From Candidatus Bathyarchaeota archaeon (GTDB lineage: Archaea > Thermoproteota > Bathyarchaeia > 40CM-2-53-6), in the NCBI GenBank assembly GCA_005881615.1, contig VBBR01000061.1:1-34981 (forward strand): a stretch of 34,981 nt of DNA. Reading direction: 5' to 3'. How positions within the stretch are numbered: position 1 is the stretch's first letter; every line of letters begins with the position of its first letter. Both the position numbers and the translations under genes were made by a program. Positions 13,118 through 24,175 of the stretch are shown here, in pieces. The notes under the pieces were generated by a model. It saw only the letters and a program-made list of their open reading frames with translations. It did not search any database and was not told where the DNA came from.

Positions 13118-13736
13118 CCTACATGTACACACTAACAGATCCAGCGATGCCTTCACATCGCCCAAACAGCTTGCAATCATTTGTAGGGATCGTGGACTAG
13201 ATGGTCTAGCGATAACCGACCACAACGTTCTTACCGTCGACTTTAGCGATGACCCTGTCATCCTTCCTGGGATCGAAATATCGACGCGACATGGGCACAT
13301 AATCGGGCTCGGACTCTCGGAGGCCATTCCCAGAGGACTGTCGGCTGACGACACAATTCGGAGAATCAACAATCTTCACGGAATCTCGATCGTCCCCCAC
13401 CCGTATGATCTTCTTCGCTCGAGTGTAAGACCAAACACTCTGGCGGTCCGTCCTGATGCGATCGAAGTAATCAATTCCTCTAGCTTCCTCCACTCCGTTA
13501 CTTGGAAGCGGGCACGGAAATTCGCGGAGAAAGAGAACTATCCTATGACAGCTGGAAGCGACTCGCATATTCCGGAGACAATAGGAAGAGCATACACTGA
13601 GGTAGAAAGCCCCTCGAAGGATACTGCATCAGTGTTGTCTGCTCTAAAATCTGGATTAGTAACTCCTGTCGGCCGTCCAATCCGGGTATCCGAGCGAGTT
13701 CGAAAAATGTTCCATGCCAAGCGTGAGGAAAACTAG
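13077..13736 (+). CDS. PHP-domain phosphoesterase
   Basis: 219 aa metal-dependent hydrolase of the PHP superfamily. Metal-ligand motifs appear in order: DLHVHTNRSSDA, AITDHN, GIEISTRHGHIIGLG, IVPHPYD and AGSDSHIPETIGRAYTEV. Stand-alone PHP proteins act on phosphate esters or nucleotide-like substrates; the substrate here is unknown. The ATG at 13077 overlaps the end of metG by 41 nt. A TTG at 13101 directly before KLKLDLHVHT is an equally plausible start. The stop codon overlaps that of the convergent FtsZ-like gene within a single CTAG (13733-13736). Confidence 0.9.
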   Translation: MKSGAGFPLKLKLDLHVHTNRSSDAFTSPKQLAIICRDRGLDGLAITDHNVLTVDFSDDPVILPGIEISTRHGHIIGLGLSEAIPRGLSADDTIRRINNLHGISIVPHPYDLLRSSVRPNTLAVRPDAIEVINSSSFLHSVTWKRARKFAEKENYPMTAGSDSHIPETIGRAYTEVESPSKDTASVLSALKSGLVTPVGRPIRVSERVRKMFHAKREEN

Positions 13737-14797
13737 TCCCTTCGGGCTTGAACTTGCTCCATTTGATACAGTGGCACTGAGAGTGTCGTGAACTCCTGGC
13801 CGTCTTCTTGACCGTATTCCGCGTCGTATAGTTCGATAAAGTCGATAAACCCGTTCAGCGCGGTCCCGTAGGGATAGCCTGTCAAGAAGAGGCATACGGA
13901 AGGCTCTGAGGGGCTGTAGACGCTTCCGTGTACGAAGGATAGATTTGATCCTACGATGGAAACCAGTGTGTCGTACGCTTGGGCGAACTGGGCAGTGCTG
14001 AGAGTGGCTGGTCCTCGATAGAGGAGCAACGCTCCCTTGGCCTTGTTGAGAGGCAGGTTCGCAGACGGCGTTCTGAGAGCCTCAATCACAGAAGTTTGAA
14101 GCGTATCCCCGGTTCTAAGCGAGAAATTACAGACTGTCGCTAGGTCTCCTCTCGAGAGAACTTTCAGAATGTCTCTGGCTTCGACATCTTCGGCTCCAGA
14201 CAACAGCTCGGTGAGACTTCGAACGGCAATACTCGCTGTTTCGTCGGTGCTTCTCTTGGATGTACTTAGATAGTCTCGGTTGACTCCGTTGTCTATTACG
14301 ATCGTGCAATCGCACGCGTCGACCATTTTCTTGAGTCCTCGCAGGGCGATGAATCGACGTTCTCTCTCGTGAATGAAGGGAATCGCAACGACCGATACTA
14401 CTGGGCGAACTGGGGTCCGTGATCTTTGTGCGATGATCGGTGCACTTTGTGTTCCCGTTTCACCGCCCAGCCCTGTTACAACGATGGTGAAATCCGAGCC
14501 ATCGGTATATGATGTGACCCGGTGGGCTGCAGACTGAAAGACCTTCTGGTCGTCTCGGCCAACCATGACTTTTGAGTTTGTTGACGCGACTGAGTCCTCA
14601 AGGAAGACCTTGTTTCGAGCAGGTGACCGCGAGAGCTGTCCTCTATCGGTGTTGACAGCCACACAGCGGCTCGGGCTAACCCCTCCCCCTATCGCATGGC
14701 TCAGCAAATTATTCCCCGCACCCCCTACTCCAACAATGGAGACTCTGAGGATCGGATTCGCTAGCCTCTCGTCGGAAGAGATTTCTTCTGCAGACAA
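13733..14797 (-). CDS. diverged FtsZ/tubulin-family GTPase
   Basis: 354 aa. The Rossmann-like GTPase start is clear: SIVGVGGAGNNLLSHAI (residues 20-36) and VAVNTDRGQL. The tubulin signature loop is GLGGETGTQSAP (109-120) instead of the FtsZ GGGTGTG, with Glu for Gly and Gln for Gly. VVAIPFIHERERRFIALRGL and IVIDNGVN correspond to standard FtsZ segments. The T7 region reads DVEARD (204-209) where FtsZ has NxDxxD, so the terminal Asp is kept and the Asn is lost. No acidic FtsZ C-terminal peptide is seen. Diverged FtsZ homologues are known in Thaumarchaeota that divide with Cdv proteins. TTG start, about 35 nt after an AT-rich box (14829-14841). A division role is not implied. Confidence 0.88.
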   Translation of the reverse strand: MSAEEISSDERLANPILRVSIVGVGGAGNNLLSHAIGGGVSPSRCVAVNTDRGQLSRSPARNKVFLEDSVASTNSKVMVGRDDQKVFQSAAHRVTSYTDGSDFTIVVTGLGGETGTQSAPIIAQRSRTPVRPVVSVVAIPFIHERERRFIALRGLKKMVDACDCTIVIDNGVNRDYLSTSKRSTDETASIAVRSLTELLSGAEDVEARDILKVLSRGDLATVCNFSLRTGDTLQTSVIEALRTPSANLPLNKAKGALLLYRGPATLSTAQFAQAYDTLVSIVGSNLSFVHGSVYSPSEPSVCLFLTGYPYGTALNGFIDFIELYDAEYGQEDGQEFTTLSVPLYQMEQVQARRD

Positions 14798-15018: not shown

Positions 15019-16483
15019 TTAAGAAGTTTGACCACGGGTTTTCGGGTTGTTCCACTTGAGGGTGATCGTCTTGGGATGTGACGCCTTCACTTCATCGATT
15101 CTTCCGACCGAAGTGTTGTGTGGAGAACTTCTTAGTCTATCCGGGTCAGTCTCTGCCTCCTTTGCCGCTTTGAGGAACGCCTCGACAAGTTCGTCGAGGT
15201 CTCGGAGACTCTCTGTCTCTGGCGCTTCGACCATCATCGCCTCGTCTACAATTTGTGGAAAATAGACGGTGGGCGAATGGAGCCCAAAATCTAGCATTCT
15301 CTTCCCCATATCTAACGCTCTGACGCCCGTCTAGTTCAAACTTGCTCCGCTCTAGAACCTTGGAAAGGACGTAGTTTGTATTCAATACGGCAGTTTCCGC
15401 GACGGCTTTCAGACCGTCAGGGCCGAGACTTAGAATGTACGCATAGGCTCGGACCAAGACGCCGATGTTGCCATGAAACGCGGTCACCTTACCGACAGAG
15501 TCAGGAGCATCATAGTCGAAGAAGTACTTCTTGCCATCAAAACCGACTAATGGTAAAGGTAAGAATTTTTCCAGATCTTTCCTAACCCCGACTGGCCCGG
15601 CGCCCGGTCCACCGCCGCCGTGAGGCGTTGCAAACGTCTTGTGAAGGTTAAGATGGACGATGTCGAATCCCATGTCTCCCGGGCGGACCTTCCCCAGTAT
15701 GGCGTTGAAGTTCGCTCCATCGTAGTACAGGAGACCCCCGGCGTCATGAACGATTTTCGCTATTTCGAGTACATTCTTCTCGAAGATGCCTAGGGTGTTG
15801 GGGTTGGTGATCATCAGGCCCGCTGTCCTAGGTCCAACTACCTTTCGGAGGGCCTCAAGGTCTACCATCCCGTCGTCGTTTGATGGGACAACGACCACGT
15901 TGAATCCTGCCATTGCTGCGCTGGCGGGGTTTGTTCCGTGTGCCGAATCGGGAATGATCATTTCGCGCCTTTCATCCAACTCTCCTTTCGACCTGTGATA
16001 CGCGCGCATAATGAGCGCTCCAAGATATTCCCCAGCTGCGCCTGCCACAGGCTGAAGGGACATTCTGCTCATCCCCGTGATCTCCGCGAGGAACTGGTCC
16101 AGCCGGTGCATTAGGGCCAGGATTCCCTGCACCGTCGATTCGTCTTGCTCGGGATGTATCTTTTCCAGTTTCGGATTCTGGGCTATTACTTCGGAGACTT
16201 TTGGGTTGTATTTCATTGTGCAACTCCCTAGTGGGTAGATTCCTAGGTCTACTGCAAAGTTCTCCTGAGAGAGGCGCGTGTAGTGCCGAACCACTTCCGG
16301 TTCAGAAACCTCGGGCAACGGAGGCAGCCCGCTTCTCACCAAGGCCTTTGGGACGCCATTCCAAGGATCCCGCCCCACGACCTTCCGTTCAATATCACTA
16401 GGTCTTGCCGGGGTGTGTCCTCTCTTGCCGTTTCCGGATCGTTCTATGATGAGCGGTTCGTTCCACTTTGCCTGGTGAAACAA
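15019..16483 (-). CDS. gcvPB: glycine dehydrogenase (decarboxylating) subunit 2, frameshifted
   Basis: PLP-binding subunit of the glycine cleavage P-protein. Frame 1 (TTG 16483 to about 15326) is a normal GcvPB: DLGIYPLGSCTMKYNP, LQPVAGAAGEY, SAHGTNPASAAMAGF, and LNLHKTFATPHGGGGPGAGP with the PLP Lys. The conserved C-terminus then continues in another frame (15324 to 15019): VRALDMGKRMLDFGLHSPTV, VEAPETESLRDLDE and SVGRIDEVKA. The switch needs one skipped base around 15325. Compared with family members, a block of roughly 15-25 residues carrying the (C/S)MHEFV motif is missing at the junction, so this is more than a single-base slip. Continuing in frame 1 gives an unrelated tail to 15146. It follows gcvPA after 3 nt. 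It is either a damaged gene or an assembly error. Confidence 0.88.
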
Positions 16484-17971: not shown

Positions 17972-18991
17972 ATGCTCCCTAGCGGGTGGGAGGTCACCAC
18001 CGCTGTCATCCTTGCAATCGTATCCTTTCCCGTGTCCCTAGTTCTAACCCGCTTCTTCATGCAAGTGAACTCAAAAAGGGGAATCGTTGGGATAGATGTC
18101 CATAAACTTAGCAAACCGCGAATCCCCGAGATGTGCGGCGCCGCAATACCCGTTACGCTGATACTACTGTCTTCAGCCTACGTTCTGACCGGGGGCGGAA
18201 ACGCAATCACGATGCTTGCCTTCTCCCTAGTTGTTGGTTCCGCGGCGATCGTAGGCGCAGTGGATGACAGACTGAAGCTGAGAGGCATCTACAAACCTCT
18301 GCTGACCCTCCTCTGCGGTCTTCCAATTGTAGCCCTCGGATTGGTCTATCCCAATCAAGTGTACAATCCGACACTTCAAGTACCAATCTTCGGGAGCTTC
18401 CACCTCCCCATCATCTATCCACTGAGCATACCGGTCGCCATCTCTGTTACCTCAAACACGACCAACATGCTCGACCCGCTAAACGGCACGATGGCAGGCG
18501 GCGTCTCAATAATATCCGCGGCACTCCTCATAGGAGTCCTCATCACCGGCCCCACGCCAAGCACAGTCTTCCTATACGCCTGCCTACTCTTCTCGGCGCT
18601 AGGTTTCTTCTACTTCAACAGATACCCGTCAAGAGCGTTTTCAGGAAACGTGGGACAATTGTCCATCGGTGCAGCTTTAGGCGCGCTGGCGATACTTGGA
18701 AGGACAGAGATTGCGAGCATAGTGGCCATGTTCCCTCAGATCCAGAACTCCTTCTTCTTTCTCTCAAAAATCAAAAGGTTCACCGAGCACCGAGCGTTAA
18801 CCGCAAAGCCGACAAAATTGCTAGACGACGGTCGCCTAGCCTCGTCATCGGATCCCAAAGCACCACTGACCCTTGTTAGGACACTGCTCGTCGGTCGACC
18901 GGCTAAGGAGTCTGAGGTCGTCTCGACCATCTTTGCTCTCTTCCTCATCTCAGGAGCGCTGGCATTGATCACAATGATTCTGATAAGGTGA
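17972..18991 (+). CDS. GlcNAc-1-phosphate transferase family protein (Alg7/AglH/MraY superfamily)
   Basis: 339 aa polytopic membrane enzyme of glycosyltransferase family 4. It is predicted to transfer a sugar-1-phosphate, probably GlcNAc-1-P, from a UDP-sugar to dolichyl phosphate, the first step of N-glycan assembly. About ten hydrophobic helices are visible. The metal motif VGAVDDRLKLRG (Asp98-Asp99) and the NTTNMLDPLNGTMAG motif (163-176) are intact. The cytosolic GDxG loop reads FSGNVGQLSIG (223-233), with Asn226 in place of the usual Asp. The C-terminal loop has SKIKRF.EHRAL, the usual basic/His site being partly recognisable. The leaderless ATG is 27 nt after a TATA box. The next gene starts inside its stop codon (overlap 18988-18991). 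Confidence 0.88.
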   Translation: MLPSGWEVTTAVILAIVSFPVSLVLTRFFMQVNSKRGIVGIDVHKLSKPRIPEMCGAAIPVTLILLSSAYVLTGGGNAITMLAFSLVVGSAAIVGAVDDRLKLRGIYKPLLTLLCGLPIVALGLVYPNQVYNPTLQVPIFGSFHLPIIYPLSIPVAISVTSNTTNMLDPLNGTMAGGVSIISAALLIGVLITGPTPSTVFLYACLLFSALGFFYFNRYPSRAFSGNVGQLSIGAALGALAILGRTEIASIVAMFPQIQNSFFFLSKIKRFTEHRALTAKPTKLLDDGRLASSSDPKAPLTLVRTLLVGRPAKESEVVSTIFALFLISGALALITMILIR

Positions 18992-19254
18992 CAAGACTGA
19001 ACCAAAGAGCGGTTTCTCTCCAACTCCTCGTCTTCGTAACCCAGTGGGGATTGATGATAATCGGATTCGGAATCCTCGCCGTAGTGGTAGCTCCACTTCG
19101 TTTACAATTCGACCCAAGTCTCGGCCGTTATTTTGACGCGGCGGTGAAAGCCATGATAGCTCTCGTCTTGTCGATTTCATGGCTTTTCATCTGGGACCGC
19201 CAAGTCCGGCTGTATTTCTACCGGAAGAGAGAGGTCACTGCAGAACCGGCTTAG
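18988..19254 (+). CDS. small two-TM membrane protein coupled to the GlcNAc-1-P transferase
   Basis: 88 aa. GTG start overlapping the upstream stop by 4 nt, so very probably translationally coupled. Two hydrophobic helices (about 12-35, LLVFVTQWGLMIIGFGILAV, and 52-70, AAVKAMIALVLSISWLFIW) are separated by a short loop with RLQFDPSLGRYFD and followed by a basic tail. I do not recognise the family. Its size and topology are like OST5/TMEM258 of the eukaryotic oligosaccharyltransferase, but I see no sequence evidence for that. Its stop overlaps the stop of the convergent ATP-grasp gene (TTAG, 19251-19254). Confidence 0.65.
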   Translation: MTRLNQRAVSLQLLVFVTQWGLMIIGFGILAVVVAPLRLQFDPSLGRYFDAAVKAMIALVLSISWLFIWDRQVRLYFYRKREVTAEPA

Positions 19255-20291
19255 GAATAGTTTTCGGCGCGCCATTTTCCGCCTTCCACCATTGCGAAAC
19301 CCATGTCAGTATTCTTGGTGAACCACAGGTTCGCGGGCAGGGCGTTCAGAGTCTTAGTCGATGGGATCTTCTCGCCGAGACACAGCCTTGCAGCAAGCCA
19401 TGGAAAATTCCATTCAGGATGACCTAGTCTCAAAGAGGCCAAAGTGAGATAGTGGACGTTGGTAGTGAATCTGCAGTTGATCTCAGTCGGACGCGGGACG
19501 CCTCTCACATCACCCTTTAGATCAACGCAAAAAATCCCGTGCGGTTTCTCGGAAACGGCTCTAATCGCCTCTAGAGCAGTCATGTTTACCTTGTTTGAAT
19601 GAACCGCCCGGTTTAGCTTGGAAGTCCCGCCCGAGCCTACGATTCGATGCCCCACCCAGCTCAGACGCTCACGAACCATAGAGGTCACCAGCTCTCCTTT
19701 GGTCCAGATAGACATGAAACAGAAATCTCGATTAGGAAGATACTCTTCCACGATGAAATCCGTCCGCAATCCTTCCGTCCAGTGATAACCAACCCAGTAC
19801 TCCACGCTTCGCCAGCTCTTTGCCAAGCAACTCAAGCTCCCCCCGGCTTCCTGCCTCGCTCTGACCCAACAGGGAAATGCGAGCTTCCTAACCAGTTGTC
19901 TTGTACTGCGGTTGCGGGGTGAGAGAACGGTTGGCTCTTTCCTGAGACCTTTCTTGAACCATCTGGACAATGCCTCGTACTTGTCCTGACATATCTTCAC
20001 CGCCTCACGATCAGGGAGGAACACGGAGGCGCGAACCCGGTAGTCGGGCTGAGGAAAGATCATCTCAACCTTGTCCTTCTTGACAACTTGGTTGAGGCGC
20101 CGCAGATATCGCGGGCTGTTGGCCGGGGGGAGGGAATAGGCTCTGTCGATCCATCTGTTTAGTTCGATACTGGTCCTGTCTACATCGGTTCCTTCGAGGA
20201 CTATCTTCTTACCATCATTACTGACTCTCAAACTCCAGCAAACATTGTTGCCTGCACTACCTCCAGCACCAGTGACCAGAATACTCCGCAT
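19251..20291 (-). CDS. ATP-grasp family protein (carbamoyl-phosphate-synthase-like)
   Basis: 346 aa. The pre-ATP-grasp Rossmann start is ILVTGAGGSAGNNVCWSLR. DVDRTSIELNRWIDRAYSLP and EMIFPQPDYRVRAS follow, as in CarB-like ATP-grasp proteins that bind an unknown sugar, nucleotide or amino-acid substrate. The ATP-grasp core lies in the second half: WVRARQEAGGSL, FIVEEYLPNRDFCFM and GIFCVDLKG, then PTEINCRFTTNVHYL with the metal-binding Glu-x-Asn. The reaction is probably ATP-dependent ligation of a carboxylate; the substrate is unknown. ATG start. It is divergent from the OST1-like gene across 103 nt containing an AATAAATAAG box at about 20329-20338 that could serve either strand. Confidence 0.82.
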   Translation of the reverse strand: MRSILVTGAGGSAGNNVCWSLRVSNDGKKIVLEGTDVDRTSIELNRWIDRAYSLPPANSPRYLRRLNQVVKKDKVEMIFPQPDYRVRASVFLPDREAVKICQDKYEALSRWFKKGLRKEPTVLSPRNRSTRQLVRKLAFPCWVRARQEAGGSLSCLAKSWRSVEYWVGYHWTEGLRTDFIVEEYLPNRDFCFMSIWTKGELVTSMVRERLSWVGHRIVGSGGTSKLNRAVHSNKVNMTALEAIRAVSEKPHGIFCVDLKGDVRGVPRPTEINCRFTTNVHYLTLASLRLGHPEWNFPWLAARLCLGEKIPSTKTLNALPANLWFTKNTDMGFAMVEGGKWRAENYS

Positions 20292-20394: not shown

Positions 20395-22101
20395 ATGAAG
20401 GCACTCGTACTCTCGCTTCTGCTGTTGGCAATATTGTCAACCCAGCTTCCTAGCCCGGCCACGGCTCAAACACCTTGCACCTTGAGCAGCTGCACCGCCA
20501 TCGTAAATAGATCCATAGTGACAAACAACTGGGGCGTCACCTTTGTGAGCGACCGGTTCACACTCACCTTAGGCTCATCGCCCGTGTCCCAAATCGCGCT
20601 CGGCATACCCTCCACTCTAAGCAGTAAGCTTCGATTCACAGAGGCTGTCGATTCGCAATCGAACCAGCTGCGAATTTCCCCCCCGAGCACGTCGAGCCTG
20701 CCCTCAGGGGGCAACTACTCAGCAATTGACATCGCATTCCCCTCAGCTAAGACCGGAGGATACAGCTTCAATCTAACAAGCGTATATTCAGACCTACTGA
20801 ATTTCAACGCGACTTCAAGCAGCTTCACTTTTGCGTTCGAACCTTTCCCCCTCACCGACGGAACTTACAATGTTACTAGCGCCCAGCTTTCAGTGAAGAC
20901 TGGCGATTGGCCGTCTCCGAAGGTATCGTCAGTGGACGGGACCTTCGCCAGCGCAACATTCACGGCCCAGACAACTACCCTGAAACCCTACAATACGACC
21001 GTGGCGACAATGACCTTCTCATCCTCTGGCACCGCCCAGAGCATTTTTGACGTCGTAGCAAATCGAACCATCACGCTTACACAAACTGGCTCAATACAAG
21101 TCACAGACTTTTACAACATGACGAACAGAGGTCATGATCTGTCTAGTCTCATTCTACCTCTTCCGAAGAACGTTCAAACAGCCACTGCCAGCGACATCAT
21201 AGGAGTAGTCAGCAGCCTTACTGCATCGACGGCGACAGACGGCACAAATACGGTGACGTTCATTCCGAGGTTCGGAACGGTGAAGGCCGGAGCCGAATCT
21301 TCTGTTAGAATTACTTACGCACTTCCGAACCAGTCTAACCTAATATCCAAAGGCTTGGGGCGATTCGAACTTAGCTTCCGATTATTCGACAATGTCAAGT
21401 TCTTCGAAGCAACACTGCAGATGAAAATAGTAACCCCCTTGGGGTTCCGCCTAGACTCTCTGAGCGGCCAAACCTTCACCACATCTGGCAACCAAATCCT
21501 CGTGGCAGTCTCTAGGGTCACGCCAATGTCAAGCCTATCGTTTACGATGGACTATCAGCTTGATCCATTCTGGGCAAGTCTCTCGGCTCTAGGATGGGCT
21601 GGACTCGCTGTGGGGTCAATCGCGGCCGTTGTCCTAGCTGTTGGCGCAACTAGCACCGCGGGAGTAACAGTCTCAGGCGCGCCGTCCGAGCTCATCGGAC
21701 GGTTCGTGGAATTGTACGATGAAAAATCAGCAATGAGACTAGAAGCCGAAAAAATGGACGAGGACCTCGCGAGAGGAGCTCTTAACCGCCATGAATTCAA
21801 GAGAAGAAGACGTGTTATCGACTTGAGAATCGCCGAGTTGGACAGAACACTTGCACCAGTCAAAGACCAGTTGTCAAAGGCGAACCCCCGCTACCAAGAC
21901 ATGACCAAAAGGCTCGAACGAGCTGAGGCCGACATCCAAGTAGTCCGAACAACATCTGCAGACCTTCGGAACCAGTACAGGAGCGCTAGAATAGCTAGAG
22001 AGCTGTACGAGTCTTTGATCTCAGACCTCGCTAAGAGGAAGGAAAAGGCTCAGCAAACGATGGACACCATAGTCATTAATCTGAGAGAGGAGACTAGGTA
22101 A
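20395..22101 (+). CDS. secreted/membrane protein resembling ribophorin I (OST1), with C-terminal coiled coil
   Basis: 568 aa. A signal peptide (residues 1-24, LVLSLLLLAILSTQLPSPA) leads to a strand-rich ectodomain (25-390) with nine N-x-S/T sequons (N38, 107, 126, 138, 159, 200, 223, 241, 312). A TM helix follows at about 397-420, then a charged coiled coil to the end. Residues 221-358 resemble the second domain of eukaryotic ribophorin I as I recall it: a VIEV..G.IxVxE..xxxxxGA-type strand pair (here RTITLTQTGSIQVTDFYNM), IxPRF..xxG....xxxxYxLP (FIPRFGTVKAGAESS, YALPNQSNL), ALxxRFxDxV (FELSFRLFDNVKF) and xxVKIxxPxG (LQMKIVTPLGFRLDS). Topology also matches (signal, two beta domains, one TM, cytosolic helix). 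Ribophorin I is an accessory subunit of oligosaccharyltransferase. Membrane-protein call firm; OST1 homology tentative. Confidence 0.75.
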   Translation: MKALVLSLLLLAILSTQLPSPATAQTPCTLSSCTAIVNRSIVTNNWGVTFVSDRFTLTLGSSPVSQIALGIPSTLSSKLRFTEAVDSQSNQLRISPPSTSSLPSGGNYSAIDIAFPSAKTGGYSFNLTSVYSDLLNFNATSSSFTFAFEPFPLTDGTYNVTSAQLSVKTGDWPSPKVSSVDGTFASATFTAQTTTLKPYNTTVATMTFSSSGTAQSIFDVVANRTITLTQTGSIQVTDFYNMTNRGHDLSSLILPLPKNVQTATASDIIGVVSSLTASTATDGTNTVTFIPRFGTVKAGAESSVRITYALPNQSNLISKGLGRFELSFRLFDNVKFFEATLQMKIVTPLGFRLDSLSGQTFTTSGNQILVAVSRVTPMSSLSFTMDYQLDPFWASLSALGWAGLAVGSIAAVVLAVGATSTAGVTVSGAPSELIGRFVELYDEKSAMRLEAEKMDEDLARGALNRHEFKRRRRVIDLRIAELDRTLAPVKDQLSKANPRYQDMTKRLERAEADIQVVRTTSADLRNQYRSARIARELYESLISDLAKRKEKAQQTMDTIVINLREETR

Positions 22102-22126: not shown

Positions 22127-23380
22127 TTGAAAATCCGCATAGAAGAATACGACAACTGGTTGGATCGAGAACTCGAGAAGGCACTGCGCCCTACCAGGAG
22201 TAAGGCAGGAAAACTTTCTGACGACGCGCGCCGGGCACTTGATGAGGCCCGAAGCTTCTTCGAGGAACTCTCTCGCAAAGCCGACGGAAACCTTGCGACC
22301 AAGAAAGACCCCATCTCGTATCGAGCCGCAAGAGTCGTAGGAAGAGTCGGCCGCGATGCTATCTCAAGCATAGAAAAGATCCAAACCCCCCAGGAGGTTA
22401 GCTGGGATTCCTACAAGGTTCTTCGAGACAATCTCTCCAACACAGCTCGCTCTCTGAGAGAGAGCAGGACCAACACCCAGAGAGAAGTCCACGGACTCTA
22501 TCTGCTAGACATGCTATCATTCTCGGGAATCGTCGAGAGAATTGCGAAAGTCGGAGAAAAGATATCACAGTTCCTCGAGGGAGACGGAGAAAATCTTCAG
22601 CGAGCCAAGACCCTTACCGGCATCGTTGAAACGATCCATCAAATCCGCTTGGAATTGGACGAGAAGAAGAAGGAGACTGTCGAACTTGAACGAACCCGTG
22701 AATCGCTCTCGTCCGCGGTGAAAGAGTTGTCAAGCGAGATGGAGAAGATCACATCAAACGATTCCCTCAAACAAGTCTTGGAAATCGAGAAAGAACTCCG
22801 GAAGGAAAGCAGAGAATTCAGAACAGATACGCTGACCCATCTCCGACGACCTCTCCGAAAACTTAGGGACCTCTCGCAGCGAGGGGAAATCGCCATTAGA
22901 GCTGAGGAGAGAGACGCACTAGGCGAGTATATTCAATCCCCGTACAGGAGCTTCCTTTCGCGAAACTCGGGACCCTACCTCACCCCGATTCTGACAAACC
23001 TGAAAAGCGCTTTAGCCTCAGGCAAGATGGGGCTCAGCCATAGAAAGACCACCAGAGTTGTGGTTCAGCTGGACCAGCTAACAACAACGGAGCATCTCGC
23101 CGAGAAACAGAGCAAAGGCCGAAGCCTCCTGGGGCAACGACAGCGACTCCTGCATGATCCAAACTGCAAGAATCTGTATCTCGAAAGGAAAATCGTTCTC
23201 AAGAAAATTGAAGAGGGAAAAAAGAACGAGCTTCAAGCCGCCGAAAGGCTTCATTTGGCGGAGGAGAAGATCAAGGCCTTGAACAAACAGTTCGAGGAAT
23301 TGCTAACTCAAGCAGAATCGAAGACCAAACAATACCTGTCACGCGACGTTCAGATAGAACGAGCTCGACTTTCGAAATAG
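22127..23380 (+). CDS. cytosolic coiled-coil protein, partner of the OST1-like gene
   Basis: 417 aa, highly charged, no signal peptide or TM helix, not recognised. Long heptad-like helices occur at about 10-55, 165-240 (IRLELDEKKKETVELERTRE) and 345-415 (KKIEEGKKNELQAAERLHLA). A more globular segment lies between them (260-330, SPYRSFLSRNSGPYLTPIL). The start is TTG, 25 nt after the stop of the OST1-like gene, so it is probably co-transcribed. The cytosolic tail of the upstream protein is also coiled coil, so a direct interaction at the membrane is a reasonable guess. SMC-like ATPase motifs are absent. Confidence 0.75.
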   Translation: MKIRIEEYDNWLDRELEKALRPTRSKAGKLSDDARRALDEARSFFEELSRKADGNLATKKDPISYRAARVVGRVGRDAISSIEKIQTPQEVSWDSYKVLRDNLSNTARSLRESRTNTQREVHGLYLLDMLSFSGIVERIAKVGEKISQFLEGDGENLQRAKTLTGIVETIHQIRLELDEKKKETVELERTRESLSSAVKELSSEMEKITSNDSLKQVLEIEKELRKESREFRTDTLTHLRRPLRKLRDLSQRGEIAIRAEERDALGEYIQSPYRSFLSRNSGPYLTPILTNLKSALASGKMGLSHRKTTRVVVQLDQLTTTEHLAEKQSKGRSLLGQRQRLLHDPNCKNLYLERKIVLKKIEEGKKNELQAAERLHLAEEKIKALNKQFEELLTQAESKTKQYLSRDVQIERARLSK

Positions 23381-23431: not shown

Positions 23432-24175
23432 CTAGGAGGTTTGTCCTAGACCTCTGTTTATCCTCTGGAGGAGAGAGCTGAACATTTTCGCGGTTAGTTT
23501 GCCTGTCTGGGTATTCCGTGGGCTTGGATGGTACGACGCAAAGACCTTGCGGCCGTCTGAGAGACCGAATTCGAGCCCATGTTCAAACTTCGGAATCTTG
23601 TCCGAGAAGAGATTGTCTTGCTTCAATAGGTTCATCGTTGAACGATAGGCAAGTTGGCCCAAACACAGGATGACTCTGGACCAATTGCATATCTCCAACT
23701 CCGATTTCAGAAAATGTGCGCAGTTGGAAATTTCCTCGCTCGTGGGCTTATTGTCGGGAGGAACACATTTTACGGCCGCGGTCACGTAAACTCCATGCAA
23801 TTCTAGTCCATCATCCGCGTCAACCGAGCGGGACTGGTTTGAAAATCCTGCTTCGAAAAACGCTTTCACCAAGAAGTCAGCGCTCCTATCTCCTGTGAAC
23901 ACTCTTCCAGTCCGATTCCCGCCGTGAAGTGCTGGAGCTAACCCGACCACGAGAATCGAAGCCTTGATGTCTCCGAAACCGGGGACAGGTTTGCCCCAAT
24001 AGTTACAGTTGAGAAACTGCTTCTTCTTGACCTTGGCCACAGACTCCCGGTAATTAACCAGCCTAGGGCAGACCCGGCATTCGACGACCTCCTTATTCAG
24101 AGGCAAAAGTCTGTCCTTTGCGGATGGTGAGGTCCCGTCGATTGAGTCCGAGTTCATGGTCATCGCCTTGCTCAT
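23432..24175 (-). CDS. uracil-DNA glycosylase, family 5 (UDGb type)
   Basis: 247 aa iron-sulfur DNA glycosylase removing uracil, and often other deaminated bases, in base excision repair. The N-terminal CRVCPRLVNYRESVAKVKKK and YWGKPVPGFGD are typical of UDGb. Motif 1 is GLAPALHGGNRTGRVFTGD (78-96), which lacks the polar catalytic residue of family 4, as expected for family 5. Motif 2 is SYHPSPRNTQTGKLT. Four cysteines for the [4Fe-4S] cluster are C33, C36, C137 (AAVKCVPP) and C152 (ISNCAHF). The frame begins MSKAMTMNSDS, so ATG at 24175 or one of the next two Met may be used. A minus-facing TATA-like box lies at 24252-24258. Confidence 0.93.
   Translation of the reverse strand: MSKAMTMNSDSIDGTSPSAKDRLLPLNKEVVECRVCPRLVNYRESVAKVKKKQFLNCNYWGKPVPGFGDIKASILVVGLAPALHGGNRTGRVFTGDRSADFLVKAFFEAGFSNQSRSVDADDGLELHGVYVTAAVKCVPPDNKPTSEEISNCAHFLKSELEICNWSRVILCLGQLAYRSTMNLLKQDNLFSDKIPKFEHGLEFGLSDGRKVFASYHPSPRNTQTGKLTAKMFSSLLQRINRGLGQTS

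Follow-up and report, generated by a model that had tools for sequence, protein, structure and literature searches.

The genome of a Candidatus Bathyarchaeota archaeon (40CM-2-53-6) very probably encodes a full-length homologue of OST1, the ribophorin I of the eukaryotic oligosaccharyltransferase (OST). The gene lies within a stretch of DNA of 34,981 nucleotides, here called the window, which is positions 1-34,981 of the forward strand of contig VBBR01000061.1 from assembly GCA_005881615.1. Its open reading frame starts with ATG and the N-terminus of the product, MKALVLSLLLLAILSTQLPSPATA-Q, has the features of a hydrophobic signal sequence. The frame is kept in the nine nearest relatives (L001-L009), at 81–92% identity. 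These are soil MAGs named as Bathyarchaeota or Crenarchaeota, with the same gene order around OST1 as in the window, which bears out an earlier sequence-only reading of this DNA as coming from a TACK-like genome. Substitutions relative to four of the relatives are mostly at third codon positions (25/22/132, 34/27/141, 58/53/247 and 33/23/142 for codon positions 1/2/3), which argues that the frame is coding and under selection at the protein level.

The predicted product has the topology of a type I membrane protein. Hydropathy and reading of the sequence place a signal peptide first, followed by a beta-rich outer domain of about 365 residues, a single transmembrane (TM) segment, and a cytosolic tail (Table 1). 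There are nine N-X-S/T sequons, at residues 38, 107, 126, 138, 159, 200, 223, 241, and 312, and all of these are N-terminal to the TM segment, so that they fall on the outside as the sequence-only reading had proposed. The same reading had described a charged, helical cytosolic tail; its approximately 140 residues include 30 K/R and 26 D/E, and helices are present in the predicted structure.

Table 1. Features of the OST1/ribophorin I-like gene and of its neighbours in the window
Feature	Coordinates	Strand	Basis or remark
GT4-family polyprenol-phosphate GlcNAc-1-P-transferase-like gene (Alg7/MraY superfamily)	17972..18991	+	Pfam, similarity
ATP-grasp-type gene between the GT4-family gene and OST1	19251..20291	opposite to OST1	
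OST1/ribophorin I-like gene, 568 aa	20395..22101	+	Pfam, PDB and profile searches; ORF kept in relatives
Signal peptide, residues 1-24, likely cleaved after A-T-A	20395..20466	+	read from sequence, predicted
Beta-rich outer domain, residues 25-390, nine sequons	20467..21564	+	model, sequence, profile
Pfam Ribophorin_I match, residues 60-250	20572..21144	+	25.4 bits, cut-off 25
Second outer domain, residues 221-358	21055..21468	+	profile alignment to human RPN1 275-393, i-Evalue 1.7e-12
Single TM segment, about residues 396-416	21580..21642	+	hydropathy maximum
Cytosolic helical bundle, residues 430-567	21682..22095	+	PDB 8WHN, 2.9e-9; model helices
417-aa charged cytosolic protein, probably coiled-coil	22127..23380	+	25 bp downstream of OST1, co-oriented

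On what does the identification as OST1 rest? The single protein matches PF04597 (Ribophorin_I) by hmmscan at a score barely above the curated cut-off. Against the PDB, it matches 8WHN, the cytosolic domain of the OST1 of Lokiarchaeon MK-D1, at 2.9e-9. PF04597 also matches at E<=0.01 in 6 of 10 close relatives and in 17 of 23 diverse relatives, with a best value of 5.2e-14. A search of the archaeon's own genome with the PF04597 profile returned no match, which reflects a limit of sensitivity rather than absence, given that the protein passes the cut-off by direct hmmscan. A diverse profile was then compared with all PDB chains. It comprises 23 sequences, of which 22 are 19–49% identical to the window protein, and it retrieved 8WHN (2.4e-22), human RPN1 (1e-21), and yeast Ost1 (1.3e-13). 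No other family was retrieved at E<0.01, the next match being at 0.013. The profile alignment to human RPN1 covers its residues 8-603, including both outer domains, the TM segment, and the tail. Within it, a D-x-x-G turn and motifs that the sequence-only reading had listed for ribophorin I (R/I-PRF..xxG, Y-x-LP, an F/Y-x-L-x-x-R-F/L-x-D-x-V strand, and K-I-x-x-P-x-G) pair in order with those of the human protein. The most conserved columns in the archaeal set include G47, D53, P152, Y240, D267, G270, Y308, P348, and Y387.

Some other matches were rejected. Those to the coiled-coil proteins COG6, SMC, CdvA, and GvpG are matches of composition. A match in the PDB to ribosomal P1 (0.0028) spans an Ala/Gly-rich stretch and reaches only 0.31 with the profile.

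Is it possible that the likeness to OST1 is superficial, and that this is some other surface beta-protein, S-layer or M1-aminopeptidase-like, with a coiled-coil tail? Such tails do yield spurious weak matches, and for this reason the profile was rebuilt from residues 1-390 alone, to exclude the tail as the source of the match. Human RPN1 (2.6e-19) was then the sole match in the whole PDB up to E = 1, which largely refutes this explanation. The domain order is also that of human RPN1 from end to end.

The predicted structure bears on the same question. The AlphaFold2 model, built from ten close relatives (82–93% identical), is of low quality, with a mean pLDDT of 47.7 and a pTM of 0.34. Values of 60–75 are confined to the second outer domain and the bundle, the latter modelled as four helices with pLDDT of about 50–74. 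When this low-confidence model was compared with the PDB by Foldseek, human and yeast OST1 were on top (3.3e-12 to 1.3e-7, with TM-scores of 0.24–0.31) and M1 aminopeptidases ranked close behind; because the model is poor, this ranking is weak corroboration. M1 aminopeptidases have no Pfam match and no PDB sequence match to the protein, and a shared beta fold would by itself account for their presence as neighbours in Foldseek. An unrelated surface beta-protein is therefore very improbable. The homology to ribophorin I proposed from the sequence alone is upheld by three mutually independent sequence tests (Pfam, the single-protein match to 8WHN, and the profile searches), and no clearly better family emerged.

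Human ribophorin I (RPN1; 6S7O, 8B6L) likewise combines a pair of outer beta domains with one TM segment and a cytosolic bundle. It is, however, too divergent for a direct single-sequence match to the window protein, and it resides in the ER membrane within a multi-subunit complex, whereas the bathyarchaeal OST1 is expected in the cell membrane. Yeast Ost1 (6C26, 6EZN) is alike in both outer domains and the TM segment. At 476 aa, it lacks the cytosolic bundle that is present in the window protein and the match stops at the TM segment. In the Asgard archaeon Ca. Prometheoarchaeum syntrophicum MK-D1, the OST1 has a homologous bundle of ~140 residues, with a signal peptide and an outer domain upstream (8WHN; PMC11417166). 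OST3/6 and TRAP proteins have been reported for MK-D1, whereas there is no clear OST3/6 in the genome investigated here. The OST1 of TACK archaea (PMC11417166) is of the same family and from the same superphylum, and does not differ in kind from the window protein.

A search for AglB/STT3 in the same genome, suggested by the sequence-only reading, found the catalytic subunit. The genome, which is 89% complete, contains one STT3/AglB (1.1e-41) with the motifs EFDPYFNF, SVAENRPSTW, and WWDYG and a eukaryote-type double sequon, DNGTGNTT. Such a double sequon is reported to be common to eukaryotic STT3 and TACK/Asgard AglB (PMC8993221). Genomic linkage does not back a complex, because STT3 is on a different contig from OST1. 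The profile search of the genome for OST3/6 gave two matches below the cut-off, in short frames of 113 and 152 aa; these are probably thioredoxins and were not accepted. Ost5 is the usual partner of OST1 in subcomplex I. There was no match to Ost5 in the genome, in a search without a working positive control.

The sequence-only reading had also placed an N-glycan biosynthesis gene beside OST1. The GT4-family gene is indeed nearby, but it is not directly adjacent, being ~1.4 kb upstream with the ATP-grasp-type gene between. No other PF00953 gene was detected in the genome. Since the GT4-family enzyme is similar to both Alg7/DPAGT1 and bacterial MraY, it can sensibly be guessed to be the first-step dolichyl-P GlcNAc-1-P transferase. 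The arrangement of these three genes is constant in close relatives. Outside of these, in the other families of the class examined, there is no conserved linkage of OST1 to glycan genes. The neighbours there are mostly unrelated housekeeping genes, including gcvP genes, a histone-deacetylase-family gene, asparagine synthase, adenylosuccinate lyase, and DUF2095. The nearness of OST1 to a glycan gene holds only locally, and its importance had been overstated. In L051-L057, L063, and L065, from other families of Bathyarchaeia, histone-deacetylase-family, asparagine synthase, and adenylosuccinate-lyase-type genes adjoin OST1 in a conserved order.

The 417-aa protein encoded downstream of OST1 has no Pfam or NCBIfam match. 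In all sampled members of the genus, and in a second genus of the family, its gene adjoins OST1. Outside the family it has only distant, unlinked relatives, and it is not beside OST1 in other families. It is a possible operon partner of OST1 and a candidate functional partner. A scan for bacterial-type promoters and terminators and a search for repeats found nothing informative.

Three other genes of the window, all on the reverse strand, are of separate note. A second glycine-cleavage P-protein gene (15025-16483) is frameshifted near 15331 and is missing ~20 codons compared to L001, which may reflect faulty assembly or a genuine disruption of the gene. An FtsZ/tubulin-superfamily GTPase (13733-14797) scores 109.5 bits against an FtsZ equivalog cut-off of 295.2 and is, from a score so far under the cut-off, probably a divergent paralogue. 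A uracil-DNA glycosylase superfamily protein (23432-24175) is under the cut-offs of the family 4 models and is divergent.

The distribution of OST1 was investigated with the diverse profile in a sample of 398 species from 163 genera of the phylum. A match at E<=0.001 is present in 197 of the 398 species and 96 of the 163 genera, and at E<=1e-10 in 150 species; the 47 weaker matches between the two cut-offs are best regarded as unproven. STT3 is far from confined to these genomes, being found in 355 of 398 species. It accompanies OST1 in 191 of 197 genomes (146 of 150 at the stricter cut-off), leaving OST1 without detected STT3 in 6, or in 4 of the strong matches. The co-occurrence of the two (Fisher 4.6e-7 and 1.9e-5) is only suggestive, as these tests ignore shared ancestry. 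STT3 is also present in 164 of the 201 OST1-negative genomes, which means that AglB can do without OST1 in part of the phylum. Two near-complete genomes, G006 (L076) and G130 (L077), have a full-length OST1 and no STT3 by PF02516; either a divergent STT3 has been missed or these have OST1 without STT3. In one family of the phylum, represented by three genomes (L067-L069), the OST1 homologues are 415–429 aa and have no bundle. These end after the TM segment with a short proline-rich tail and are still matched by PF04597. In this they resemble yeast Ost1, for which the profile match likewise ends at the TM segment.

What, then, might OST1 do in these archaea? The likeliest role, with a probability of roughly 0.6, is that of an AglB-associated subunit that docks ribosomes. 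The bathyarchaeal OST1, a type I membrane protein with two beta-rich domains outside the cell and a helical bundle in the cytoplasm, would sit beside the catalytic AglB/STT3 in the cell membrane. Its outer domains would keep nascent or acceptor chains close to the AglB/STT3 active site and its bundle would dock translating ribosomes. Secreted and S-layer proteins would thereby be N-glycosylated while emerging. The cytosolic domain of MK-D1 OST1 binds ribosomes in pull-downs (PMC11417166), and from its homology the protein encoded in the window may do the same. We infer that it physically associates with AglB and that it has an effect on glycosylation.

Ribosome binding by the MK-D1 bundle would also suit a protein that is OST1 by descent and has no role with AglB, being mainly a ribosome or translocon receptor or a chaperone of secreted proteins, with glycosylation secondary. 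In keeping with this, the bundle is the part best matched by the single protein and is highly conserved in the genus, and STT3 is present without detected OST1 in about 40% of the sampled species. However, OST1 occurs almost only alongside STT3. In addition, L067-L069 retain the outer domains without the bundle, and the conserved role must therefore extend beyond ribosome docking. We consider a receptor or chaperone without an AglB role unlikely, though it deserves more weight than an unrelated surface protein.

Discussion of accessory OST subunits usually treats them as a trait of eukaryotes and Asgard archaea. A 2016 study found no promising archaeal candidates (PMC4973528), and a 2023 survey of Asgard archaea mentions Ost1 for these only (PMC10307638). 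In 2024, OST1 and OST3/6 were stated, in one sentence and without detail, to be present in eukaryotes, TACK, and Asgard archaea (PMC11417166). Within the available text of the literature naming both ribophorin and Bathyarchaeota, no description of a bathyarchaeal OST1 was found. The link to the eukaryotic OST that the sequence-only reading had thought notable stands as homology but not as a rarity, because OST1 in TACK archaea had already been reported. The window gene is therefore a confirmed and useful example rather than a new discovery. To it are added the domain anatomy and, with no published description found, the frequency across the phylum, the bundle-less family, and the gene neighbourhoods.

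Full-length OST1 with a bundle is present in Bathyarchaeia, and as many as half of the species sampled across the phylum have an OST1. This suggests that the catalytic subunit had an OST1 partner before the split of Asgard archaea and eukaryotes. More tentatively, and with somewhat less than even confidence, an AglB-OST1 complex of two or a few subunits that docks ribosomes may be widespread in Thermoproteota. Co-translational N-glycosylation by a complex bound to the ribosome would then predate the Asgard-eukaryote lineage, with separate losses of the bundle in yeast and in some archaea. The bundle-less members are a natural test of bundle function, and the origin of the OST complex becomes testable outside the Asgard archaea.
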